Below are positions 3,301 to 63,827 of a stretch of 64,000 bases of DNA, in pieces. Position 1 is the first letter of the stretch. Each line of letters starts with the position of its first letter. The position numbers and the translations under genes are program-made. The stretch is from positions 7,457,501 to 7,521,500 of the forward strand of contig NC_060018.1 in the NCBI RefSeq assembly GCF_021134715.1. The letters are read 5' to 3'. Source of the stretch: Daphnia pulex (taxonomy: Eukaryota; Arthropoda; Branchiopoda; Diplostraca; Daphniidae). The notes beneath the pieces are model-generated. The model searched no databases. It was not told where the DNA came from and saw only the letters and a list, made by a program, of their open reading frames with translations.

Positions 3301-5609
3301 CTCCAGGATCGATCGCGACGCGGGCCGAGCAAAATCATCTCAGCCAGCCAACGAATTAATAAGAAGAAGCTATAAGGTCGGCTGGCCCATGTTTGCGCCG
3401 GGCCGGGGTCACGTGACTGCCTTGAAATGTCGACGCATTCTTTTGTTTACGAACGTGTGCGTCATATTTCGTTGAGGGGAGCCTGAGAGCTGAGACAAAG
3501 GACCGGCTTGGCTTTATTCGTGCGCCTATAGGTCATCCGATATGGAAAGCTCCTTTTTTTCTCTCTCTCGGTAGAATATACAACTTAAAGTTGAATACAT
3601 TTTCTTTGAAGAAAAAAAAAATGGGAGATGTTTATCCAGATGGCTAAGGGTGCAGCTGCGTTCTCATGGTGTGGAACAATTGACTTTCGTCATTTTTCGT
3701 GCGAAAGCAATTCTTGTAAAAGAAACAGAAACAGAAAAAAAGAAGAGAAAAACATGAATACGATTTCGTAAATGCGCGCAAGAATGTCTTGTTGGCTTGA
3801 CGTCGAGTCGTGCGACCAACGTGTCTCTGATGTCGAAATTCCGTGGAAATAAATATATACGGATGATGACGGTTTGAGGACACAATAACCAAGAGAAACG
3901 ACAAGTAATGAGAGAACCCAAGTAAACTTTTCTCTTCCGCCAAGAACTTAATCTTCTTCGTCTTCGTTTTCCCTATTTCTTTTTTTCTTTCTTCAGATAA
4001 TATTATACCTGACGACGACTAGTAGATGCTGGCCCCGATAAGATCCAGCCACCGAACGATAAGAAACAAAGGGGCCATCAGACCTGGACTCACTTCTTCT
4101 TCTTCTTCCAACATTTCAAACCAACCCCCCCGAAAGAAAAGAAAATGAGAAATGAAAAAAAGTGAGCACACAAAGAAAACAAGGGAACTGGTGGATGGCA
4201 TCTCAAACGGAACGGTTCCAGCCGGTGGTCGCCCACCGGGAGAACTAGTGGGTTCTTATATATTGCCACACCATCATCCACCCTCGTTTTTTTTTTTTTT
4301 TCTCCTCTCATTTCCTCGTCCGGGCGTCCAACGAGAGGAAGTGACGTCAGCGCCGCAGACTAGCTACTTCACCGATGGGTTTCCATTCACATTTTGCGCC
4401 AAAAAAGACAGATGGGAGCCCCATCGGGCCGGAAGATGACGCCATACCAACACACACGTCGGACTCATTTTCTAAGCGAAATAATAAGAGCCCCATCCAT
4501 TTGGCCTTGCATTTCTTGCATTAATAAAAATGTAAAAAAAAAGTGCCGGCCATTCCAATTACCAATGCCAAACCGACGGGCAAGTTCAATGGTTTCATTC
4601 AAAGAAAATTCTCCTATATAATCCCCGGCTCGTCTCCAGCCAGTACGGCGCAGAACTCAAAGAGAATAGACGAGAACAATGGAAACAAAACGCCGAGCTT
4701 TTCATTCCGCATTTCTACACTTTGCAACGGTTTTTAATCGGTTCAGCCTTCCGTTTAACCCTTTTCAATCGAGTTCAGTAAACGACTAAACGCTATTTGG
4801 CATTGAAAGATTTTCAATCAATACAGTCCGGAATCTTAAAACCTTTCAATCATCTCAACTGTTCAATAAACACAAGGAAGAAAGCAGTTTCTATTTAATT
4901 TTAATGGCATTTTGTTGTAGGCCTTCTTTTTGGTTGCAGGTAGTAGTTGCTCATTAAATTATACCCTAAACTACAAACATGACCATGACAATCAAAAGAC
5001 ACACCTGGTCACCCAAACTTGTTTAGGTCAACTATAAATAAATCTTCATCCCCCCTTCTCTTTCCCACTTGTTCCCCCCTTATGTCAAGTGACGGGGGCT
5101 AAAAAAGAAAACGAAAATCATTGTCTAATTGCTTTTGAATCTCCCACCCCTCGGTTTTTGGTTCTCTTCCGGTCAACCTGCTTTGCTGTTTTGTGTGTGA
5201 ACATCCGGCGTCGTATTAGGGACGGGTTAGGGACACATTTGTTACGTTATTCGTCACAGATGTGCTTTCCACATCCAACGTCAGGTTATTTCTTATATGA
5301 AAATGAGAGAGAAGGAAAAAAGGAAAAAAGGGCCGACTTACATTCGTGATAAAACGTTGTCAAGGAACGCCCCGTCAATCAGCTGAGAATAATCCAGTTC
5401 TGTGCGGCTCTCGTCGTCATCTTTGAAGGTTCGCACCTGTTCGATTCGATAACAATAAACAATAGACATATATAAAAACTTAGAGAGAGAAGAATTGAGT
5501 TGACAAATCATACCCATGCCACCAGAGGTCCCTGCATGAGTTGATCCATCGAATTGGCAGAAGACATCGAGTATTCTGGCTTCTTTGGATACTCTGGTCC
5601 GCTCGCCAT
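350..5609 (-). CDS. Girdin: Girdin/CCDC88-type HOOK-domain protein, 5' end (partial, continues beyond left edge)
   Basis: Four exons join in phase: 5609-5514 (start ATG, 32 codons), 5436-5342, 755-650 and 562-350, all with GT-AG borders. They give about 170 residues. The first exon ends in MQGPLVAW, resembling the N-terminus of mammalian girdin (SPLVTWVKTF). Exon 2 gives QLIDGAFLDNVLSR, exon 3 RIRNFDALVRAVKGFYE and exon 4 LLLLVLGCAVQGPSKE, together the HOOK domain that opens CCDC88 proteins. In that family the HOOK domain is followed by a long coiled coil, and the proteins link actin, dynein and microtubules or G-protein signalling. The coiled coil would lie left of position 1. A 4.6-kb intron separates exons 2 and 3, unlike the short introns elsewhere. 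HOOK1-3 are alternatives, but the GCAVQ segment fits CCDC88 better. Family assignment is firm; symbol by similarity. Confidence 0.9.
756..5341 (-). other. Large intron 2 of the girdin-like gene
   Basis: This 4.6-kb stretch separates the girdin exons at 5342-5436 and 650-755. It contains poly-T and poly-A runs and purine- or pyrimidine-rich stretches, but no open frame that I can tie to a protein family. Long first or second introns often carry regulatory DNA; that is inference, and no specific site is recognised. Confidence 0.75.
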
Positions 5610-13288: not shown

Positions 13289-16200
13289 TTATGTCTCGCT
13301 TGAATCATTGCTGAAATCGTTCTCACTTTCACTCGTCATTGACTCAATATTTTCTTCGGGGCTTGCTTTGGCGTCATCAAATGGAATATCTTTGATATCG
13401 GGATCTTGTTGAAGTTCATCGAAAATCTCCTCATTTTCGGTTTCAAGCAATACATCCAATTCTTCCAGGGGTACTCTAAGACGCAAATCTTTTTCTGCCA
13501 TTAATTTTGCAACTTCCCTTATGGAAGCTGGGACATATTCCACTACATCCATACAAATGCTCTAACAAAAAAAAAAGATAAATAAATAAATAAATATTGA
13601 TCATCATTTTGAATTGGACGCGATAACTACCTTAGACACAGGACAATCTCGAAAGGCCCGATAAAACAGATCTTTACATTTCCGAGAATCACCTGTCAGG
13701 TGTGCGCTATGCATCAGAATTCTCCACATCAAAGCTACATGGCGCGCAGAACATTGTGTAACACAGTATTCTGTGAGATGCTCCAGCTTTCGTCGGTAAC
13801 CTAAATGCAGCGTAGCGATTCCTCCAGCGTCACTTGCCCATTCTTTGAAAGTTGTTTCTTCTCCTTTTTTAATGGCTTCCTCCCTATTAGCAAGAGCTAG
13901 ACAAGCGGCCAGCGCTGCTCTGTAACTAGACTTATTTTTTGCATCTTTGGCACGCATTGTAAGACTATTCCACAAACCACTAAACATGCTGCATCGCTCC
14001 TGAAAATATAAGTAATTGATATTTATCAAAAGAAAATTCTAAACATATCAAAATAATACCTCAGAGTCAATCAAAACGGCTAACAGTTGCATACTGTCTG
14101 GATACTCCGCTAGTGCAGTGCAAAGTGTATCATGAAATAATCTTGGTTGAAAATCCTTCACCCATTCTCGGCACGCCGACAACAGGTCAAGTAAAGTGAC
14201 GTAAGCAGACTCCCGACGGATATGGTATCTGCGAATACAAGGTTTAAGAGAAAAATTTCGCTTGTAAAAAAAGGACATTTTAAAAATTCACCTGAGAAAT
14301 GCAATATTGTATCGATTCTCCGTAGTAAAATAGAAATCGCTTTTTTGAGAAGTTTCTAACCATTGTTGGACCATTTGAAAAGCAGGTAGGCAACCCTCCG
14401 AAAGGGATAAAAAATACGAGTAACACCGTAGAAGCTCGATGAATTCGTCTGGGCTATTAAAAAAGGGAGTTTCGACGTCAAAACTTGAAACGTCACATTC
14501 AATTGCAGATGAAGAGAAATCCTGAAGCATGGCGTGGTATTTTCTTTTGGCCTTTAAAAGAATTGCAGGAGTGGGAGGTGTACCATGTGGAGAGAATGAT
14601 ACACCCGCTCCAAGAGCAACTAATTGCGCCAAAGCTGAGGAGTGATTAGGCTGCTGGCGATTTTTACTCTGCAAAAAGGAACGCGAGTAAGAAAACCACG
14701 TTCGGATCAAAGCAGCTCTGAATCCTGTTTTCGACTGTTGTTGATCCATAACCAAGGGATTAGCGGAATACATTTGCAAGAGTTGACCCAAAATCTTTTG
14801 GTATTCTTCTTCGTTTCCAACTTCACGTTCCACTGCAGCGTATCCGTTATAGAGCAAAACAGTAGATGCAGAATCAGTACTAGGAATGTTTTTTAAAAAA
14901 GCTTTGATCCAGCACTTAGTCTCCTTCCAGCTCCGATTGATGTCACTTTGCTTCGACGATCGAACGATGGCGCGTATCCGAACTCTCTCTACATCCAACC
15001 ACCACAGAGCTAATTCCAATTGATGAGGTGGTGTCAACATACTATAGCACTGCAGAACGACGCGACGAACGAATGTCAGGTAAGAAATGCTGTTAAATAT
15101 GTCTGGCAGAGAACTAGACAATGATGCAACTTTTGGAACATTCGCAAGCAACTGCAGAAGGTTATCTTCGTGGACCAGAGGAGCCCAAAAGAGTTGAGCC
15201 TGGCTAGCCGGTAGAAGAGGTACGCCAAGGGATACGAGGCATCCCACTACTAGTCGAAACTGGAGGCGATCCTTTTTTTCGCATACGAAAAGGTATTGAG
15301 AGAGATCAGCGAACGAAACAAAGCGATCCTCATCGTCACAGTCGCTACTATTTGAGCAAGCTTGAAAATGTTGATGGGATCGTAAGTACTCCATTTTATG
15401 CCACACAACTGGGAAAGATTGACCGGAGTTGATAATCGCGTCTTCGTCTTCTAGTGCTAAAAAAAAATGAAAATCATCACAAACTGTAAGCAAAATTTGT
15501 CCATAAGAAAATAAAGAAGATATTTTAATTAATACCATCTATTCCATGGACAGCGCGAATAGGTTGTCGTTCAGTCATTTGAGCACCGGAATTGCAGTTC
15601 ACTTCACCAGTTCTAGGAACATGACTTTCCCATAAGGCCTTAAGCCAAATAAATGATAGCGAAAGATCATCAGGTCGTTTAAAGCACAACTCTAAAAGTG
15701 CTTGAGAAAGCGAAACTGACTTCTCTGTCCAACCGCACTGCCGAAGAAATGAGCACAGACGCATACCAATATCTAATTGAAACATGTAGTAGAGAATTTT
15801 TTTTATTTTAGAAAATTTAACATTTTGAATTAATTCACTTACCTATCATGAAGTCTTCCAAATTCGTTGGACGTTGATGAGAGGCAAAAGATGGTTGTTG
15901 CATTTGCACGAGTTTTTGAAAACACGATGCATACGTTTTCAAAACCTGAGAAACACTGAATCCTTCAAAACTGTTTTCTATAAAATTCAGGTACTCTTTC
16001 CACAGTTCGATTGACATGGGATTGACGAAAAGAACATTACGCCATTCTTGATGCAAGGCAGAGCTATCCCAATATTCAGCAGCAATATTCAAACGCGCTG
16101 TGAGTAATTTTGTACTCTTTGGATTCTGCTCAATCGCTTTATCCAAAATTGCAACCTTTCGTTCCAATAAGGCTCTTGGGTGAAGACTTCTCCCGTGACT

Positions 16201-17214
16201 TTTATGTTGATTTTTGCCATCATCAGCATTTTCTTCAGTCATTGATAAGGAAGCTATGTTTTGATGTTCAATAAAGGAAAGCCATAAATCAATGTCATGA
16301 GGGTTTTCTCTAAGTTTCTCATTGAACAATGCTGTTTGACGAGAGATTTCAAATTCTTTTGTTTTTACAGGTGGCTCATCCGGATTTGCAATATGATTGC
16401 CTTGGATGTACAAGACAGTGCTGGAATCGTAAATTCCGAAAGGATTTGTTTCACTAGGTTGTGGTTGTACAGGTTGTACAAGGTTGGTAATTTTTGCCAA
16501 TCTTCTCAGACTCTTCTTTCCAAAGTATCGTAGAGGTTTAGGCTTTTTCAGATAAGGTTTTAATGATGAATTGTGAGCACCTAATATTCCTCTCATTTGA
16601 TGATGCCTATAAGAAAGTGATAAGCAAGTTGTTAAATTAATATCCTTTGGAATAAAATATAAAATATTTTACCTGGCAACATTTTTAAAATACATATTTG
16701 GGAAAGCAAAATTGTCTTTACATCCTTTCACATCTTTGTAGAAGGATTCTTCAAGTTTCAATTGCAAACCACCAGAAAAAATTGATTTTCTGCCAATACT
16801 GGATAATTCCGGTTCAGGTGGGATGTTGGAAATGATTGATTTCTTCTTTTTTTTTAACTTCTTTTCAACTTTACTTCGATGTTTTTCATCTTTCTTTTTC
16901 TTTTTTCTCCTTTCAGAACTTTTTTTATATTCCTTGCTCGTTGTTATAACTTCTGCATCTGCTGTTGTTGGACTTTCTTGTGTAGTTGTACAAGTAGAAG
17001 TGGGGGTTTTCAACCCCAAATGATTATAACTCTGTCTCTGTTCTGCATTCAACAAACCTGAATTTTGTGACTGGATTCCAACGCTTGCAGCAACTGACGT
17101 TTTTGGGATAATACTTTGTTGAAAACTTTCATTCTTCAACCAACTGATCGTTTCTTCAGTCTTTTTGGACTCGGATGGCTTACTATCATCTTTTACGGAG
17201 TAAGCTGCAAACAT
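13289..17214 (-). CDS. NRDE2: NRDE2 homologue (nuclear exosome/MTR4-associated RNA-processing factor)
   Basis: Seven exons (17214-16673, 16606-15843, 15772-15536, 15456-14292, 14228-14060, 13999-13631, 13561-13289) join in phase to 1172 residues; human NRDE2 has 1164. The first 180 residues are polar, with WLKNESFQQS and a Lys-rich run. Next comes the conserved NRDE-2 block with PFGIYDSSTVLYIQGN, then HAT/TPR-like helical repeats such as NPHDIDLWLSFIEHQ. The C-terminal LRLRVPLEELDVLLE aligns with the human LRIRLPLEELELLLE region and precedes an acidic tail. NRDE-2 was found as a nuclear RNAi factor in C. elegans. In mammals it binds the helicase MTR4 and limits exosome recruitment in nuclear speckles. 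The ATG at 17214 matches the position of the family start. The LIPT2 stop lies 252 bp upstream on the same strand. Confidence 0.95.
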
Positions 17215-17465
17215 TTTAATTAATTTCCCCCGTAGTGTACGTTCGCGGTGCAATGTCACAAGCAGACGACTGGCAAAATTGTTGTTATTATTGAGGTAAA
17301 CATAGATGTCACTACAAGCTTTTGGATGCTAAAATTCAAATATCTTGCCCGCGAAAATGATTGTGTGTGCAGAATTTTTGACGTGTTTGTTTTTTATTTA
17401 TTTATTGACTAAAAATTTAATTTTTACCATTGTAACAGTTCGACTTTAAAATGTATTTGATCTAA

Positions 17466-56407: not shown

Positions 56408-57351
56408 GGAGCTGCGGTAAAACGTATTTATCACGCATAAATATAAACTTAAGTAAAGATAGGATAACCGTAGTGAAATTGGAATACTGAAGAAATACGT
56501 CGTCTGCTCAGTTATTGCCAGATTTGATAAAATTAATAAAAAAATCAATTTTTTAAAATCAATATCTCTAAAACTAAAGAGTATTTAGACAAAATGTAAG
56601 CGAAAGTATTTTTAAATAAACTTTAAAAAAATAATATCGAGAAATAAAAAGTTGTGTTGTTTTCTCAAATTAACTTGTGTTGGGTTTTACACAACTTGCA
56701 AACTTTTGCTCGAAACTGAAAACGCAACCCACGCAAACTCGATCAGTAAGTGATAAATTGGCGCAAGTGTAGCAAAAGTTTGTTCTCCAGATCAACTTGC
56801 GCCTGTAAATATAATCTTGCGCCTTAAAATGAATCCAAACCATAATTTGTGCTATTACAAGAACAGCAAAAGTAGAGAACGAGAGGGTTTTGCTGTTCTT
56901 GCAATAGCACAAATTATGGTTTGGATTGGTTTTCAGGCACAAGATTATGTTTACACGCGTAACTTAATCTGAAGAACAAACTTTTGCTACACTTGCGCCA
57001 ATTTATCACTTACTGATCGAGTTTGCGTGGGTTGCGTTTTCAGTTTCGAGCAAAAGTTTGCAAGTTGTGCAAAACCCAACACAAGTTAATTTGAGAAAAC
57101 AACACAACTTTTTATTTCTCGATATTATTTTTTTAAAGTTTATTTAAAAATACTTTCGCTTACACTTTGTCTAAATACTCTTTAGTTTTAGAGATATTGA
57201 TTTTAAAAAATTGATTTTTTTATTAATTTTATCAAATCTGGCAATAACTGAGCAGACGACGTATTTCCCCAGTATTCCAATTTCACTACGGTTATCCTAT
57301 CTTTACTTAAGTTTATATTTATGCGTAATAAATACGTTTTACCGCAGCTCC
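56408..57351. mobile_element. Giant hairpin: inverted repeat with two 464-bp arms and 16-bp loop
   Basis: The left arm 56408-56871 (from GGAGCTGCGGTAAAACG) and the right arm 56888-57351 (ending CGTTTTACCGCAGCTCC) are near-perfect inverted complements. They are separated only by GTAGAGAACGAGAGGG. Differences are single bases. Such a palindrome could fold into a 464-bp duplex when transcribed. No transposase or other gene is recognised inside. It may be a foldback transposon or a recent inverted duplication. Confidence 0.9.
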
Positions 57352-58114: not shown

Positions 58115-59799
58115 CAATCCCAGAATCTTCAAGTCCCAGAAAAAACGTCTCTTATCACCCCAAAACGCCCCCCCCCCCCCCAAAAAAAAGCGTTGCCAAC
58201 TCGTTCTTGCGGTTCCTCGAGCCGCAACACGTCGTATAGCTGTTTTTTTTTCTCCTCTTCAACTCAATCAATACGCGCCGGCGTGACTTGAAAGATCTTG
58301 AAGGCTCACGGTCATCGCACATATGAAAGATACAAAGATAGTGATCCTTTTTGCGTGCTAGTCCAAAGTCAGCGGGCCGCGATTTTCTTTTTTTCTTACA
58401 AGAATTTATTTCGCTTGGCATTTGATTTCCACTCCAGTGTTTCTTTTTGGTCCCTTTATGCTACGCGGCTATATGAGCAAGTAAAAAAAAAGTGATGGAA
58501 GAAAATCCCAAAAAACTGTTCGTCTGACACATACATCGTATTTCCTTTTTTCCCTGTCTTGTTCCTTTCTTCAGAGGAAAGCGAAACGACATACGTGTTT
58601 GACGAATCATAATATCAATTTATGATTTATCCTTTTATTTTTCTATAGGCCTACGTTTTGACCTTTTTAAATTGTAAAATCTATTTTGATGATCTGGGAG
58701 TAGGCCTATAAGCCGATGGGTAAACGAGAGAACACCGGAGAGAACAGCTAGTCATTAACGGACCCTGTCCGATCATCCGTCAGTCCACCCATTCAACAAC
58801 CGGGATTGATAATTTCTTGTAGTTCATAACCAACGGCCATTCTGAAAATGGATTAGTGAAACAAGCAGGCTCTCGTGTACACGTTCAACTATGCACGTGC
58901 AAGCAGACTTTTTTTTTGAAGACGATAGGACTTTGGGGGATTTGCCTTTTACTCTTTGGCTGTCTGCTTGTTTGTCTCTGACAGACATAATTTATTGGTT
59001 AGATTTTTTCTGAGGTCCCTGACCTTCCTCATCTCATTGGTCATTTTCATTCTGCTGCGGACCATCGTCTTTATCTTCTTGTTCAATTCATATCCTTACC
59101 AGTTAATCCTATAATAATCTGTTACTATTAGTTACTTTGCTCATCCTTACCGCTTTCCTCATCCTCGTCTGAACATTCATCCTCTTCTGAACTTTTGGTG
59201 TCTTCCTCAGTCTCAGAGTCCGAAGGGGCTTCCCTAGAATCAATCTCCCCAAACTCATCATCAGACTTATTAGTCATCCCTATAAACCAATGGCTGTATC
59301 TTGTCAAATAAATAAATGTTAAAAAGTTAAAGCTATAATTGTTGGAAAAAGGAGGCAAGCAGAGGCTTCTTTTTAGGTAATGCTCGTAGAACGCTCGTGT
59401 AACATTCAGCATGAAGTAGATCTGCCCATAGACCCTCAAGAAGTGGAAACTCCCAGCTCCAACCATAGTTGGACATAAGTTGCCTACCACATAAGGCGAC
59501 CTATATTCGGCAACCTAATATTATATCCTGGTGTGCTATAAACATAAAGATTAGTGTTTATTCAAACATTTTAAGAATTTGTGAAAGTTACCCGTACTAC
59601 TCTGCGTAATCCATGTTTGTTAAATCAAGAAATCCTGTAAAGTTGTTCAGAGTTACGGTGGGAATTCTGGGAACAGGTGAAACGGCTGTGAACTGTCGTG
59701 AAAATAGCGTGAAACTAAGTTTTTTTTTCGTTAAAGACGTGTGTTTTGAGTCGGTTGTATCGGATGCAAAAATTGAACAAATTAAAAAAAGAAACTTAC
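58115..59799. other. Spacer left of the twitchin-like fragment
   Basis: A poly-C run at about 58169-58180 followed by poly-A, and T-rich stretches, occur here. A minus-strand acidic frame at about 59128-59280 (EEDTKSSEEDECSDEDEE) is low complexity and cannot be assigned. An exon-like stretch at about 59597-59690 is not twitchin-like. No confident gene. Confidence 0.4.
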
Positions 59800-60734
59800 A
59801 ACCAACGGTAACCTCTGAATTGGTTTCGTCTGCGTTGGTATGGGAAGTGTAGTGTCCAGCATCGTTCATTTTGATCTCTTTGAAAAATAAGCGACGCTTT
59901 TTGCCCTCTACTTGGATCTGAATCCTGTAAAACCACACATGTTAATAAAATCGACCGTTTCGTTGAGAGTTTCTTATTTTAAAACAAACTTTTTATCTGT
60001 TGGTTTGAAGACTTCACCGTCCTTCTTCCAGATCACTCCCGCGTCATCCTCGTCAACTTCACATTCTAGCATCGAAGAAGAGCGAAGCCATTGCAAAACG
60101 TAGGGTCCGGGTGGATCAACGAAGTTAAAGATTGGGATTCGCCTGTCCCCACATTCTCACAAAGACTCACCTTATATTCAATGACATAGCCAGTGATCGG
60201 AGAACCTCCGTCATTTTCAGGCTTAGTCCAAGTAATATCTGCGTGATCAGCATCCCAGTCGACGACTTCAGCATTGCCTGGTTTCCCTGGTTCATCTGTT
60301 ATTTAAAATACCAAATGTGAGTAAATTGAAGATTCAAATCCACTATTGAACCTTACCCCAAGGATCTTTGGCAAGGAAGACTTTGGGAAATAGACCGGCT
60401 CTGAATTTCTCATCTTGTTTACAGCCACAACACGGAATTTGTATTCTTTCTTGTTGATTAATCTTTCACACTTGAAAGATAGAGGCTGATTGACTGGGGA
60501 TTCACCAACCGGATTCCATCCACCTGTTGGAAAGAAATGATCAAGTATGACGATTGCAAATATTCAATTAACGACCACAAAAGTGACACTCACCCTTGAC
60601 AGACAAGTCCTGGCGCTCGATGATATAGTTGACAATGGGCATACCACCGTCATCCTTTGGTTTCTTCCACTTGAGAACGAAAGAATCTTGGAATATATCA
60701 TGAACTGAAATGTCTTCAGGTGCGCCTGGCACAT
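59800..60734 (-). pseudogene. Twitchin/projectin-like fragment: FN3-FN3-Ig remnant
   Basis: The exons are 60734-60594 (DVPGAPEDISVHDIF, WKKPKDDGGMPIVNYIIER), 60523-60357 (GWNPVGESPVNQPLSFKC, EYKFRVVAVNK), 60295-60171 (DEPGKPGNAEVVDWD, PENDGGSPITGYVIEYK), a stretch ending at 59990 (MLECEVDEDDAGVIWKKDGE) and 59924-59800 (GKKRRLFFKEIKM, NADET). These are FN3 and Ig domains of giant muscle kinases of the twitchin family. Decay signs: exon 60523-60357 is 167 bases, so FLAKDPWG is reached only in another frame and the next junction no longer fits. The second Ig cysteine (expected YTC) reads YTS. The intron between the last FN3 and the Ig stretch has collapsed to about 28 bases at most. The fragment is far shorter than twitchin (thousands of residues). 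Confidence 0.8.
60074..60165 (+). repeat. 92-bp tract shared with helicase exon 2, copy in the twitchin-like fragment
   Basis: It is identical to 62326-62417 except for one C/T difference, in the same orientation and without indels (offset 2252). It spans the start of the Ig stretch and the collapsed intron before it. Confidence 0.97.
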
Positions 60735-60825
60735 CTGTTAATGAAAAGTAACCAAAATAGTTCATTAGCTATTCACAGACGTCAATAATCAAAGGGGAGA
60801 ATATTTAAATTCCGGAATTATTTAC

Positions 60826-63264
60826 CTTGAATACTAAAGTTGACATCCTTGTTCCAACACACAAGCTTGCTCATTCCGAAGGCGAGCGGCATGAGAGATT
60901 CTGGCTCGGTACACTGGGACGATTCGTCGATTATGCAACAGAGAAATCGTTTGCTAGACGCTGGCCTTATAAAGAATAAAGAAACATAAATTTATAACAA
61001 CATTAGGAGCATTAATAGTTATTACTCAAGAAAAAGCTGCTCCATTTCTTTACTGCGAGAGGAATTGAGCGTCGAGCAAATAATGTTTGCTTGAGACAGC
61101 ACTTTTTGTCGCATCGCACGAAGATTGTTTTGAGTGTTCAGTAACTCGAGGTGGGTCAGAAAGCGATCTTGATAAGACCTTTCCACTTTGTCAATATCAA
61201 CTTGTAGCTTTGCCAATTTTTTTTCAATCATCTGAGCTTCATCTGAAGATCCATTCTATAACAAAGAAACATTATTAACTGCACAAGTCTTGAAAATAAA
61301 TTAAAAAACAAAACAAAAAATAACCTTGTTAGCATTAAGAATTGCAGCTACTAATTTTTTTTTTTTTCTCTGGAGAGTATTTGATTCGGCTTTCAAAGTT
61401 AGAAGATGTCTACTTTCCGAGGAAGTTGTTTTAGCAGCATCATCTCGTAGTTTTTTCCCCGATAATTTATCAAGAGAAATTCTAACAACGTCAGGATTCA
61501 TGGTCGCTGGCACACCAATGCGTACAACTGTAATGGAAAACACAATAATAAAGATTGCGAACAGATCATATTTAATTACAATTAACTTACTGTCGTATTT
61601 CGAATCAATTTCGTTCATAAGGTGATTTGCTATCTCATCAATTGCGTTGTTAGAAGGTGCACATACTAGAATGCATGGGTAGCAGCCGGTTGTTTCGTAA
61701 TGCATACACCTCACGCGTTTAATCATTTCCACAATGACGCGCGTTTTTCCAGTACCTATATGAAAAGTGCATATTAGGACATTTAAATTTAAAAAAAAAG
61801 ACAACCGAGGACAAAATATCTAACCTGGGGGTCCCTGTAAAAGGGCAACTTTGGGTTCGCGTTCTGCTGAGCTTACTTCCTTTGTTATAGACGCCACAGC
61901 TTTATATTGAATAGGATTCAAAAAAGCATGATTATCATCCAGCACTGCGTCCAACTTGAATGCATCTTCATAATCGCTGGGATGAAGGATAACTTCGCAT
62001 AATGGGGAACGAGCTAACTCGGCGATTTGAATTATTTGTTTAAAGACCGTGTTAAGTCGTGATATTCTAGTGACAGTGAAAATACTGCCCAGGTTTGGAG
62101 GGACATGATACATTAAAATCCGCAAAACGAACGATGTAATGGGAATGTTAGGGTCCTGACAAGTTTTTAACAGGCGTGGATCAATTTCACCAATCTCCCA
62201 GCTCCGGTATCTCACGTGTTCGGCAACAGCAAAAATTTTCTTAGGGGGTTTCTGGCGTGAAGTATTGAATGTGATGGAAAAGAGGTCCATATTTGTTATT
62301 CTTGTAGGCGACAGAGCTTCACACAGAAGAAGAGTGAAGCCATTGCAAAACGTAGGGTCCGGGTGGATCAACGAAGTTAAAGATTGGGATTCGCCTGTCC
62401 CCACATTCTCACAAAGAGTAGCCCATACCTCGTGGAGAATAAGAGAGGTGAAAGTGCTACAGTAATCTTCTAGAGTGGAATACGCTGAACCAACTGGTAT
62501 CAGCGAGAGCTCTGGAAGACTTTTATAACCCTTTCCTTGTACTGCATTCATAATTGGAAACGTCTCATCCTTAAACATGTTTGATACCTATTTAAAATAC
62601 TTTAGTGAAACCGAATTTTTAACACAAAAATGTAAATATTTACTTCAATCCAGTCATATTTCCAGTTAATTATCCTGTAGATTAAGTCGTTAATTAATGC
62701 AACCTTATCGACGGGATGTTCAATAGTTTTCGGAGGAAGACGTTTTAGACGTTCAAATGGCTTGGGAACTGTTTTTGCCGGTTGCTGGGTAGACAGGACA
62801 GTCTGTTGCTGGCACGGTGAGGTTAGAATTGGTTCATGTTCCGCTGATTGGTTATCCGTTTCCTTACTAGATGAATCATCAACAGTAGCGAGAGAAAATT
62901 TTACTTTCTTGGTGGGTGGATACTTAATCCTTGGTTCAGTTCCTCTTTCTTTTTCGTTAAAAGGACCGGACTTCACAAGCGGATTCAATATTTCCGCGTC
63001 AGTTTCCTTCATAGAGATTTTCTTTAATAAGCTTGTTTCATCTTCTTCCTCCTCCGAAGAAATATTCCGAGATTTTTGGTGTTGCGTAACTTCTTTTGAT
63101 GCCTTTCCTACGTTTCCTTTGGTTTCCATTCCAATTCGGGAATCTTTAGCGTGAGTCTTGGATGGTCTCGAGGGTTTTGAGTGATGTTTTTGTGCAGATT
63201 TGCCCGCCGAACTCAAATCATCTTTCTTGGGTGACCCTCCTTTGGATTTCTTGCTTACGTAGAC
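60826..63264 (-). CDS. Senataxin/Sen1-like SF1 helicase, truncated after motif II
   Basis: Six exons (63264-62644, 62587-61825, 61755-61591, 61527-61325, 61255-61026, 60965-60826) join in phase, with further 5' exons expected upstream. The first exon is Lys/Ser/Glu-rich. Exon 2 holds SAYSTLEDYCSTFTSLIL and NPIQYKAVASITKEVSS and ends in LLQGPPG. Exon 3 completes the Walker A motif GPPGTGKT and has VLVCAPSNNAIDE-type motif Ia (seen as CAPSNNAIDEIA). Exon 4-5 is a coiled insertion. Exon 6 has the motif II IIDESSQCTEPESLMPL. The family then needs LVGDPKQLPP and motifs IV-VI, but after MSKLV the sequence changes to CWNKDVNFSIQ and the gene runs into twitchin-like exons. Sen1 proteins resolve R-loops in transcription termination. 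Without motifs III-VI this copy cannot be an active helicase. Confidence 0.75.
62326..62417 (+). repeat. 92-bp tract, copy inside helicase exon 2
   Basis: Partner of 60074-60165. On the minus strand it lies within the continuous helicase frame (ENVGTGESQSLTSLIHPDPT region), which stays open across both borders. The same bases are read in a different frame in the twitchin-like fragment. Confidence 0.97.
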
Positions 63265-63827
63265 CTATCGCAGAGCATTTTAATAAATGAGATTTTGACA
63301 GAGCTGGCGCTGATACCGTTGAAGAACAAATTTCTTTACATTACCCCCCCCCCCATGTTTTCTCTGCAAGAAAACTCCTCTATACATAGTTCTCCTCTTT
63401 TGTCTCTTTTTCCCAAATCCAATTTTTCATATAAAATTGATTCACAATGGAAAAAGATAGTATTACAATTTTTATCCAAAAACATCATGAATTCCCTCCG
63501 TCGTCGGGGTTTCAAACACCGTTTTCCACAATGTCGTTTTCTCTCTGTTTGGCTTGGTCATGTTTATCACCGTCAACAAACACGAAACGACAGGCGTGGT
63601 AGTGCGAGAGAACAACCTGGACCAACTCGCCAAATGACCAACTGTCGCTGCCCTTAGTAAATTCCTATCAATAAAAAACAAAAGGAGATATTATTTTTTG
63701 ATTTCAGTCAATCCTGTTGTTTTTGAAAAACGAAGGAAATGTCAATTGTTTTTTTTCTTCCCTCGGTAAAAAAGGTGTTCTGCTTATCGTCGCTTCCTTC
63801 CCTTTCATTCTTCGTGTCGAGTACGCC
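63265..63827. other. Region upstream of the first visible helicase exon
   Basis: The exon at 63264 begins at an intron acceptor (GATAG), so more helicase exons should lie upstream. A minus-strand open stretch at 63472-63681 could be one of them, but neither of its frames matches the family in a way that I can support. Confidence 0.35.

Follow-up and report, generated by a model that had tools for sequence, protein, structure and literature searches.

A 3′-truncated Sen1/senataxin-type helicase paralogue in Daphnia pulex with a probable templated insertion of muscle-gene DNA at its broken end

In Daphnia pulex, a paralogue of the Sen1/senataxin-type helicases ends abruptly within its sixth modelled exon, and the broken end very probably bears a complex templated insertion, more likely a dead scar of muscle-gene DNA than a working fusion gene. 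As judged from the sequence, this insertion is fairly young and probably arose by template-switching repair. The window, i.e., the whole stretch of DNA analyzed, comprises 64,000 nucleotides of contig NC_060018.1 (C2:7457501-7521500), and the genome searched amounted to 133,188,837 bases on 13 contigs. Coordinates given without a contig name are positions in the window.

Results

The helicase gene was modelled on the minus strand as six exons between 63264 and 60826, which form a single open frame without a stop; all six are preceded by AG and followed by GT, and the sixth closes in phase 1. The first modelled exon (62644-63264, with the acceptor ...CGATAG in front of 63264) was delimited by its open frame and borders, as were exon 3 (61591-61755, from TGKT onward), exon 4 (61325-61527) and exon 5 (61026-61255). 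Exon 2 (61825-62587), an open frame that reaches the start of the Walker A motif (QGPPG), also holds the source of the filler described below. Within exon 6 (60826-60965), the helicase-derived part identified from the open frame and by tblastn (60860-60965) contains motif II (DESSQ), its last residues being MSKLV. The AAA_11 profile (PF13086) matched residues 443-696 of the predicted product with 150.8 bits (profile positions 8-242 of 257), and both GPPGTGKT and DESSQ were found, in agreement with an earlier note on this DNA that had described the helicase as normal through these two motifs. An fn3 domain (35.9 bits) follows AAA_11 in the same predicted product.

Sen1-type chains were the closest solved structures to the helicase (6e-19 to 4e-11; PDB 8ftm and 8ram), with weaker matches to NAM7/UPF1 (9e-9 and below) and SMUBP-2 (2.8e-7). 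On these comparisons, the window gene is a paralogue of the Sen1/senataxin-type SF1 helicases, closer to Sen1 than to UPF1 or SMUBP-2. It resembles them in its domain 1A with motifs I and II, while differing from them in having no motifs III-VI (RecA2). We take 8ftm, as well as 8ftk and 8fth, to be fungal Sen1.

Four long paralogous stretches with 69-71% DNA identity were located on contig C2, together with shorter matches, and the paralogue at C2:4.316-4.321 Mb codes for both RecA halves. No upstream exon or start codon of the helicase was found 5′ of exon 1, and a search of the 20.2 kb on that side (the remainder of the window together with L030 and L039) gave no match to the long N-terminal exon of the paralogue. 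The N-terminal blocks of the two genes are not collinear (window 62644-63300 against positions 4236-4850 of the paralogue DNA, L027): relative to the acceptor region that both share, an acidic EEEE...KKIS block is downstream in the window gene but upstream in the paralogue.

Related helicase sequences elsewhere in the genome include a 2,275-bp repeat on C2 (6821360-6823634 and 6825726-6828000), whose two copies, about 4.4 kb apart and 99.96% identical, represent the 5′ part of a related helicase. This repeat extends to the edge of the sequence compared and may be longer; its second copy has no 3′ half, and a further copy of the same helicase is present at C2:6.84 Mb with 97.6-99.3% identity. 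These repeats reflect either recent growth of an array or a duplication in the assembly. On C8, gene pieces with AAA_11/AAA_12 matches of near-equal score lie 21 kb apart (6803541-6805217 and 6824977-6826653), probably as a recent duplicate.

With regard to the 3′ end, the window gene departs from the 4.3-Mb paralogue at 60860, immediately after MSKLV, where the paralogue continues with LIGDPDQLPA. This agrees with the loss of family sequence inside exon 6 that the earlier note had placed after the same residues. When the C-terminal half of the paralogue was compared with the window by tblastn (E up to 1), matches extended up to 60860 only and covered its first 33 residues. Similarly, none of the 28 genome matches to the RecA2 profile (AAA_12, PF13087; motifs III-VI) lies inside the window. 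On these profile and tblastn results, we rejected the possibility that the missing half of the helicase sits farther along the window, behind the inserted DNA.

At C2:7780310-7780879 there is a fragment of a Sen1-like helicase that extends from CTEPESL into RecA2 and next to which an upstream half was not detected. It was considered as the severed half and rejected, because it begins upstream of the break, overlapping a part that is still present in the window gene (CTEPESL...), and because its sequence differs.

At the break, the helicase match ends at 60860 and the muscle-gene match starts at 60854; the five bases between them (60855-60859, minus strand) were assigned to neither parent and preserve the frame across the junction. 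The inference of the earlier note that a breakpoint within an exon indicates a rearrangement is borne out by these borders. From there on, three pieces follow on the minus strand. The first (piece A, 60166-60854) is a copy of C2:6431066-6430378 and consists of the end of an Ig exon followed by three FN3 exons with their introns, the FN3 exons being placed at 60734-60594, 60523-60357 and 60295-60171 by the match to the parent and by frame reading. Next comes a filler of 92 bp (60074-60165), which is a copy of part of helicase exon 2 and is identical in 91 of 92 positions to its source at 62326-62417. Lastly, piece B (59732-60073), comprising part of an Ig exon, an intron and the next Ig exon, is a copy of C2:6432030-6431689. 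The muscle-gene part thus runs to about 59732, past the end at 59800 that had been assigned to the feature earlier. The downstream flank (58271-59731) consists of about 740 bp without a match and then of repeat-like pieces that match C1:2538381-2540120; for 58991-59731, none of the 40 candidates scored (of 168) gave a match.

The parent of pieces A and B is located on the same contig, about 1.09 Mb away (C2:6430370-6432030), and its Ig and FN3 exons read in frame. Counterparts of both halves exist elsewhere in the genome, as had been proposed for checking: this parent on the muscle side and the two-halved paralogue at C2:4.316-4.321 Mb on the helicase side. Identity to the parent was 95.3% over 698 columns for piece A (29 substitutions and 2 indels in 689 bases) and 96.5% over 342 columns for piece B (12 of 342 positions differ), and it covers the introns too. 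Ancient exon shuffling was rejected on this account, given that exons and introns alike are 95-97% identical to the parent and that the break falls inside an exon. Since piece B lies 5′ of piece A in the parent and both keep the orientation of the helicase in the window, their order has been swapped and their orientation has not. For comparison with the filler, the stretch that served as its source shares 78-82% identity with three helicase paralogue matches.

Titin (PDB 8g4l) provided the best solved-structure matches of the muscle-gene part, with twitchin (3uto) lower in the list. In line with the twitchin-like FN3 exons that the earlier note had recognized, the fn3 score and the Ig/FN3 parent indicate that these pieces derive from a long gene of Ig and FN3 exons that belongs to the titin/twitchin family; the name twitchin is taken from that note. 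The likeness to that family lies in the FN3 and Ig exons of a recently copied long Ig/FN3 gene; the difference is that the window has only about 1 kb of it, in two shuffled pieces with a frameshift, so that neither the exon order nor the frame of the parent is kept. A second copy of the helicase/muscle composite was not found among the 9 and 7 genome matches. The swapped pieces, the 92-bp filler, the absent second half of the helicase and a one-base deletion at about 60398 (see below) go beyond what had been described before.

The arrangement of these pieces suggests a multi-step copying repair. A break or a stalled fork in the helicase gene would have started it; copying would then have moved off the helicase onto the muscle gene as template (piece A), from there to the local helicase exon 2 (the filler) and, in a third switch, back to the muscle gene at a site farther upstream (piece B), with loss of the 3′ half of the helicase. 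Both templates are still in the genome (C2:6430370-6432030 and 62326-62417), and the filler, as it is still present at its source, was copied and not moved. Where piece A joins the filler, 6 of 8 bases are shared by the two templates at the point of switching, an imperfect microhomology with a chance of 0.0064 for one random pair of 8-mers, although the site was picked by eye. The join of the filler to piece B is blunt, and for that of piece B to the flank no partner turned up among the candidates scored; of the three testable junctions, just one has microhomology-like sequence. With 1 difference in 92, the filler is less diverged than the muscle-gene pieces (one-sided p 0.03 when compared with the intron rate, 0.17 with the exon rate), a mild sign that there was more than one step.

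In place of template switches, end-joining might have captured free DNA fragments, for instance a broken or circular muscle-gene segment. We regard this as rather unlikely, albeit with some evidence in its favour: one testable join is blunt, another carries five unassigned bases, and the order of B after A could stem from a circle opened elsewhere. Against it, the filler remains at its helicase source and must have been copied, and all three pieces are co-oriented, which independent fragments would be expected to show only 1 time in 4. For the muscle-gene pieces, we infer copying rather than fragment capture.

We also considered whether the composite could be read as a protein. The donor of exon 6 (60826) and the start of the next exon (60734) are both in phase 1, and the whole first FN3 exon can be read, exactly as the earlier note had claimed for this pair of borders. 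The phases are compatible because the acceptor and the donor at the 60826/60734 border are the muscle gene's own; and since the borders are parental and a join internal to an exon is in frame 1 time in 3, a splice-compatible junction requires no selection. In FN3 exon 2, a one-base deletion relative to the parent (minus strand, at about 60398, the exact base being ambiguous in a run of C) disrupts the frame late in the first FN3 domain, and beyond it parental splicing yields foreign residues. If the donor of the third FN3 exon is left unused, a stop is reached just beyond that donor, with a predicted product of 852 residues. If that donor is instead used with the parental acceptor ahead of 59924, the shifted frame happens to fall back into that of the Ig exon, with no stop until just after 59600.

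Differences between the copy and its parent amounted to 16 of 462 positions in exons (3.5%) and 13 of 226 in introns (5.8%; 95% interval 3.1-9.6%, half of the point value being 2.9%), and did not separate the two classes (Fisher p 0.16). The first FN3 exon carries six differences, all but one of them synonymous, although the sites are few. The muscle-gene copy looks to have diverged like unconstrained DNA, close to the expectation for constraint acting on the parent alone, and this part of the composite is probably non-functional. Any transcript would encode a helicase without RecA2 that terminates within or beyond a single FN3 domain, and its product would probably be inert or degraded.

As for the helicase half, it contains neither a stop nor a frameshift in 2,085 bases. 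In simulations of neutral decay, for which the age and the indel rate used are rough, an intact outcome occurred in 0.15-15% of the runs at 1.5-2.6% substitutions, depending on the indel rate assumed, and in 0-0.6% of the runs at 4% substitutions. This hints that the truncated helicase may have been kept under selection for a time after the insertion. A truncated or fused protein may be made and kept, since the helicase half is free of stops and frameshifts, and a translated product terminating within or past the first FN3 domain is possible.

The evolutionary rate of the helicase half was examined in a trio comparison of the window gene, the 4.3-Mb paralogue and, as the outgroup, the 6.84-Mb paralogue, in which one of the two near-identical copies of the C2 repeat described above was used. 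Of the 485 helicase residues, 476 were included, the remaining nine lacking a codon in both paralogues. At these codons, unique amino-acid differences numbered 85 in the window gene, 33 in the 4.3-Mb paralogue and 61 in the third copy, with 77 codons different in each gene and 220 the same in all three. Both the excess of 85 over 33 (p 2e-6) and the ratio of nonsynonymous to synonymous changes on unique codons (70:36 in the window gene against 25:32 in the 4.3-Mb paralogue, p 0.008) indicate, by this sequence comparison, that the window helicase has evolved faster than its 4.3-Mb relative. With a dS of 0.65 between the paralogues, the faster evolution would mostly predate the insertion, if the intron divergence is split over two lineages and set against that dS.

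These data also bear on a live chimeric or truncated gene, in which exon 6 is spliced into the FN3 exons and the resulting protein, domain 1A (motifs I-II) plus one FN3 domain, serves some function, such as that of a dominant-negative partner or of a nucleic-acid tether without helicase activity. The frame and phase match at the junction, the six open helicase exons with their AG/GT borders, the breakage of the helicase half in most simulated runs, the restored Ig frame open to 59600 when the third FN3 exon is joined to the acceptor before 59924, and the mostly synonymous changes in FN3 exon 1 (5 of 6) would all fit this explanation. We nonetheless deem it improbable, given the frame lost in FN3 exon 2, an exon divergence near that of an unconstrained copy, the RecA2 half and the 5′ start that were not found, and the rough age and indel rate behind the simulations. 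In its more specific form, namely that the insertion gave rise to a protein that continues to be made and kept, with a single FN3 domain at the end of the ATP-binding domain 1A, and that competes, e.g., with the intact Sen1-like paralogues of this chromosome, it is distinctly improbable.

Two further origins of the insertion fare worse. Helitron and Pack-MULE elements can carry shuffled gene fragments, introns included, and the DNA downstream is rich in repeats, but capture of the muscle-gene fragments by such a transposon followed by its insertion into the helicase is very unlikely, as no second site with both halves appeared among the genome matches and the filler originates in the target gene itself. 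An assembly artefact, with muscle-gene reads misjoined into the helicase locus, is likewise very unlikely even though related helicases on C2 form nearly identical copies, which are difficult to assemble, because substitutions relative to the only close genome match are spread throughout pieces A and B, the order is swapped with a filler from the target gene, and the window contains no N over its full length.

The remainder of the window holds several other features. At 56408-57351, an inverted repeat whose 464-nt arms are 97% complementary and separated by 16 nt, with several relatives on other contigs, is probably a foldback-type mobile element. The stretch 53391-55704 matches C7:7745354-7747866 at 94-97% and is possibly a recent mobile element; open frames there (171 and 168 aa) had no Pfam match. 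On the minus strand, a homologue of NRDE-2 (PF08424, 'necessary for RNA interference') is represented by open frames at 14288-17328, with 132.8 bits for the middle frame and 30 bits, below the cut-off, for a second one.

Discussion

Three readings of this locus had been left side by side: a new chimeric gene, a dead junction or an assembly error. Our analysis favours the dead junction on account of the lost frame, the unconstrained divergence, the shuffled order and the repair filler, while an assembly error is unlikely on sequence grounds.

Our literature search found no paper that pairs Daphnia with senataxin. Complex chromosomal insertions in humans, discussed in terms of FoSTeS/MMBIR and chromoanasynthesis, show templated insertions and microhomologies and have been likened to iterative template switches (Gu et al. 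2016, PMC5120786). The Daphnia locus resembles them in that segments from a distant site were inserted, with templated insertions at the joins. It differs from them in that those cases are clinical, human and found by array, whereas the Daphnia insertion is about 1.1 kb long and of an age that has let it become about 4-5% diverged from its source. For PLP1 rearrangements, template switching aided by microhomeology, i.e., at least 5 bp at at least 70% identity, is described in PMC6902434. The second junction of the Daphnia insertion, with 6 of 8 bases, recalls this description, but a single junction is only suggestive.

Closer to home, newly gained introns of Daphnia pulex itself are described in PMC4202315 as insertions into exons tied to double-strand breaks, of which few inserts have an identifiable source. 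The likeness to our case is that the species is the same and that the exon insertions are linked to breaks; in contrast, those inserts became introns, whereas here the sources were identified and half a gene was lost.

In this animal genome, the locus can be regarded as a still legible relic of copying repair in several steps, with three pieces each traced to its source. It also illustrates that a splice-compatible 'fusion gene' can arise without selection, and therefore that a phase match alone is not proof of a working chimera. If selection is shown to act on the helicase half even now, the locus would offer a case for studying how chimeric genes begin; and, should the fusion protein turn out to be kept, it would represent a recent chimeric gene of a wild animal, produced by template-switch repair from known templates.
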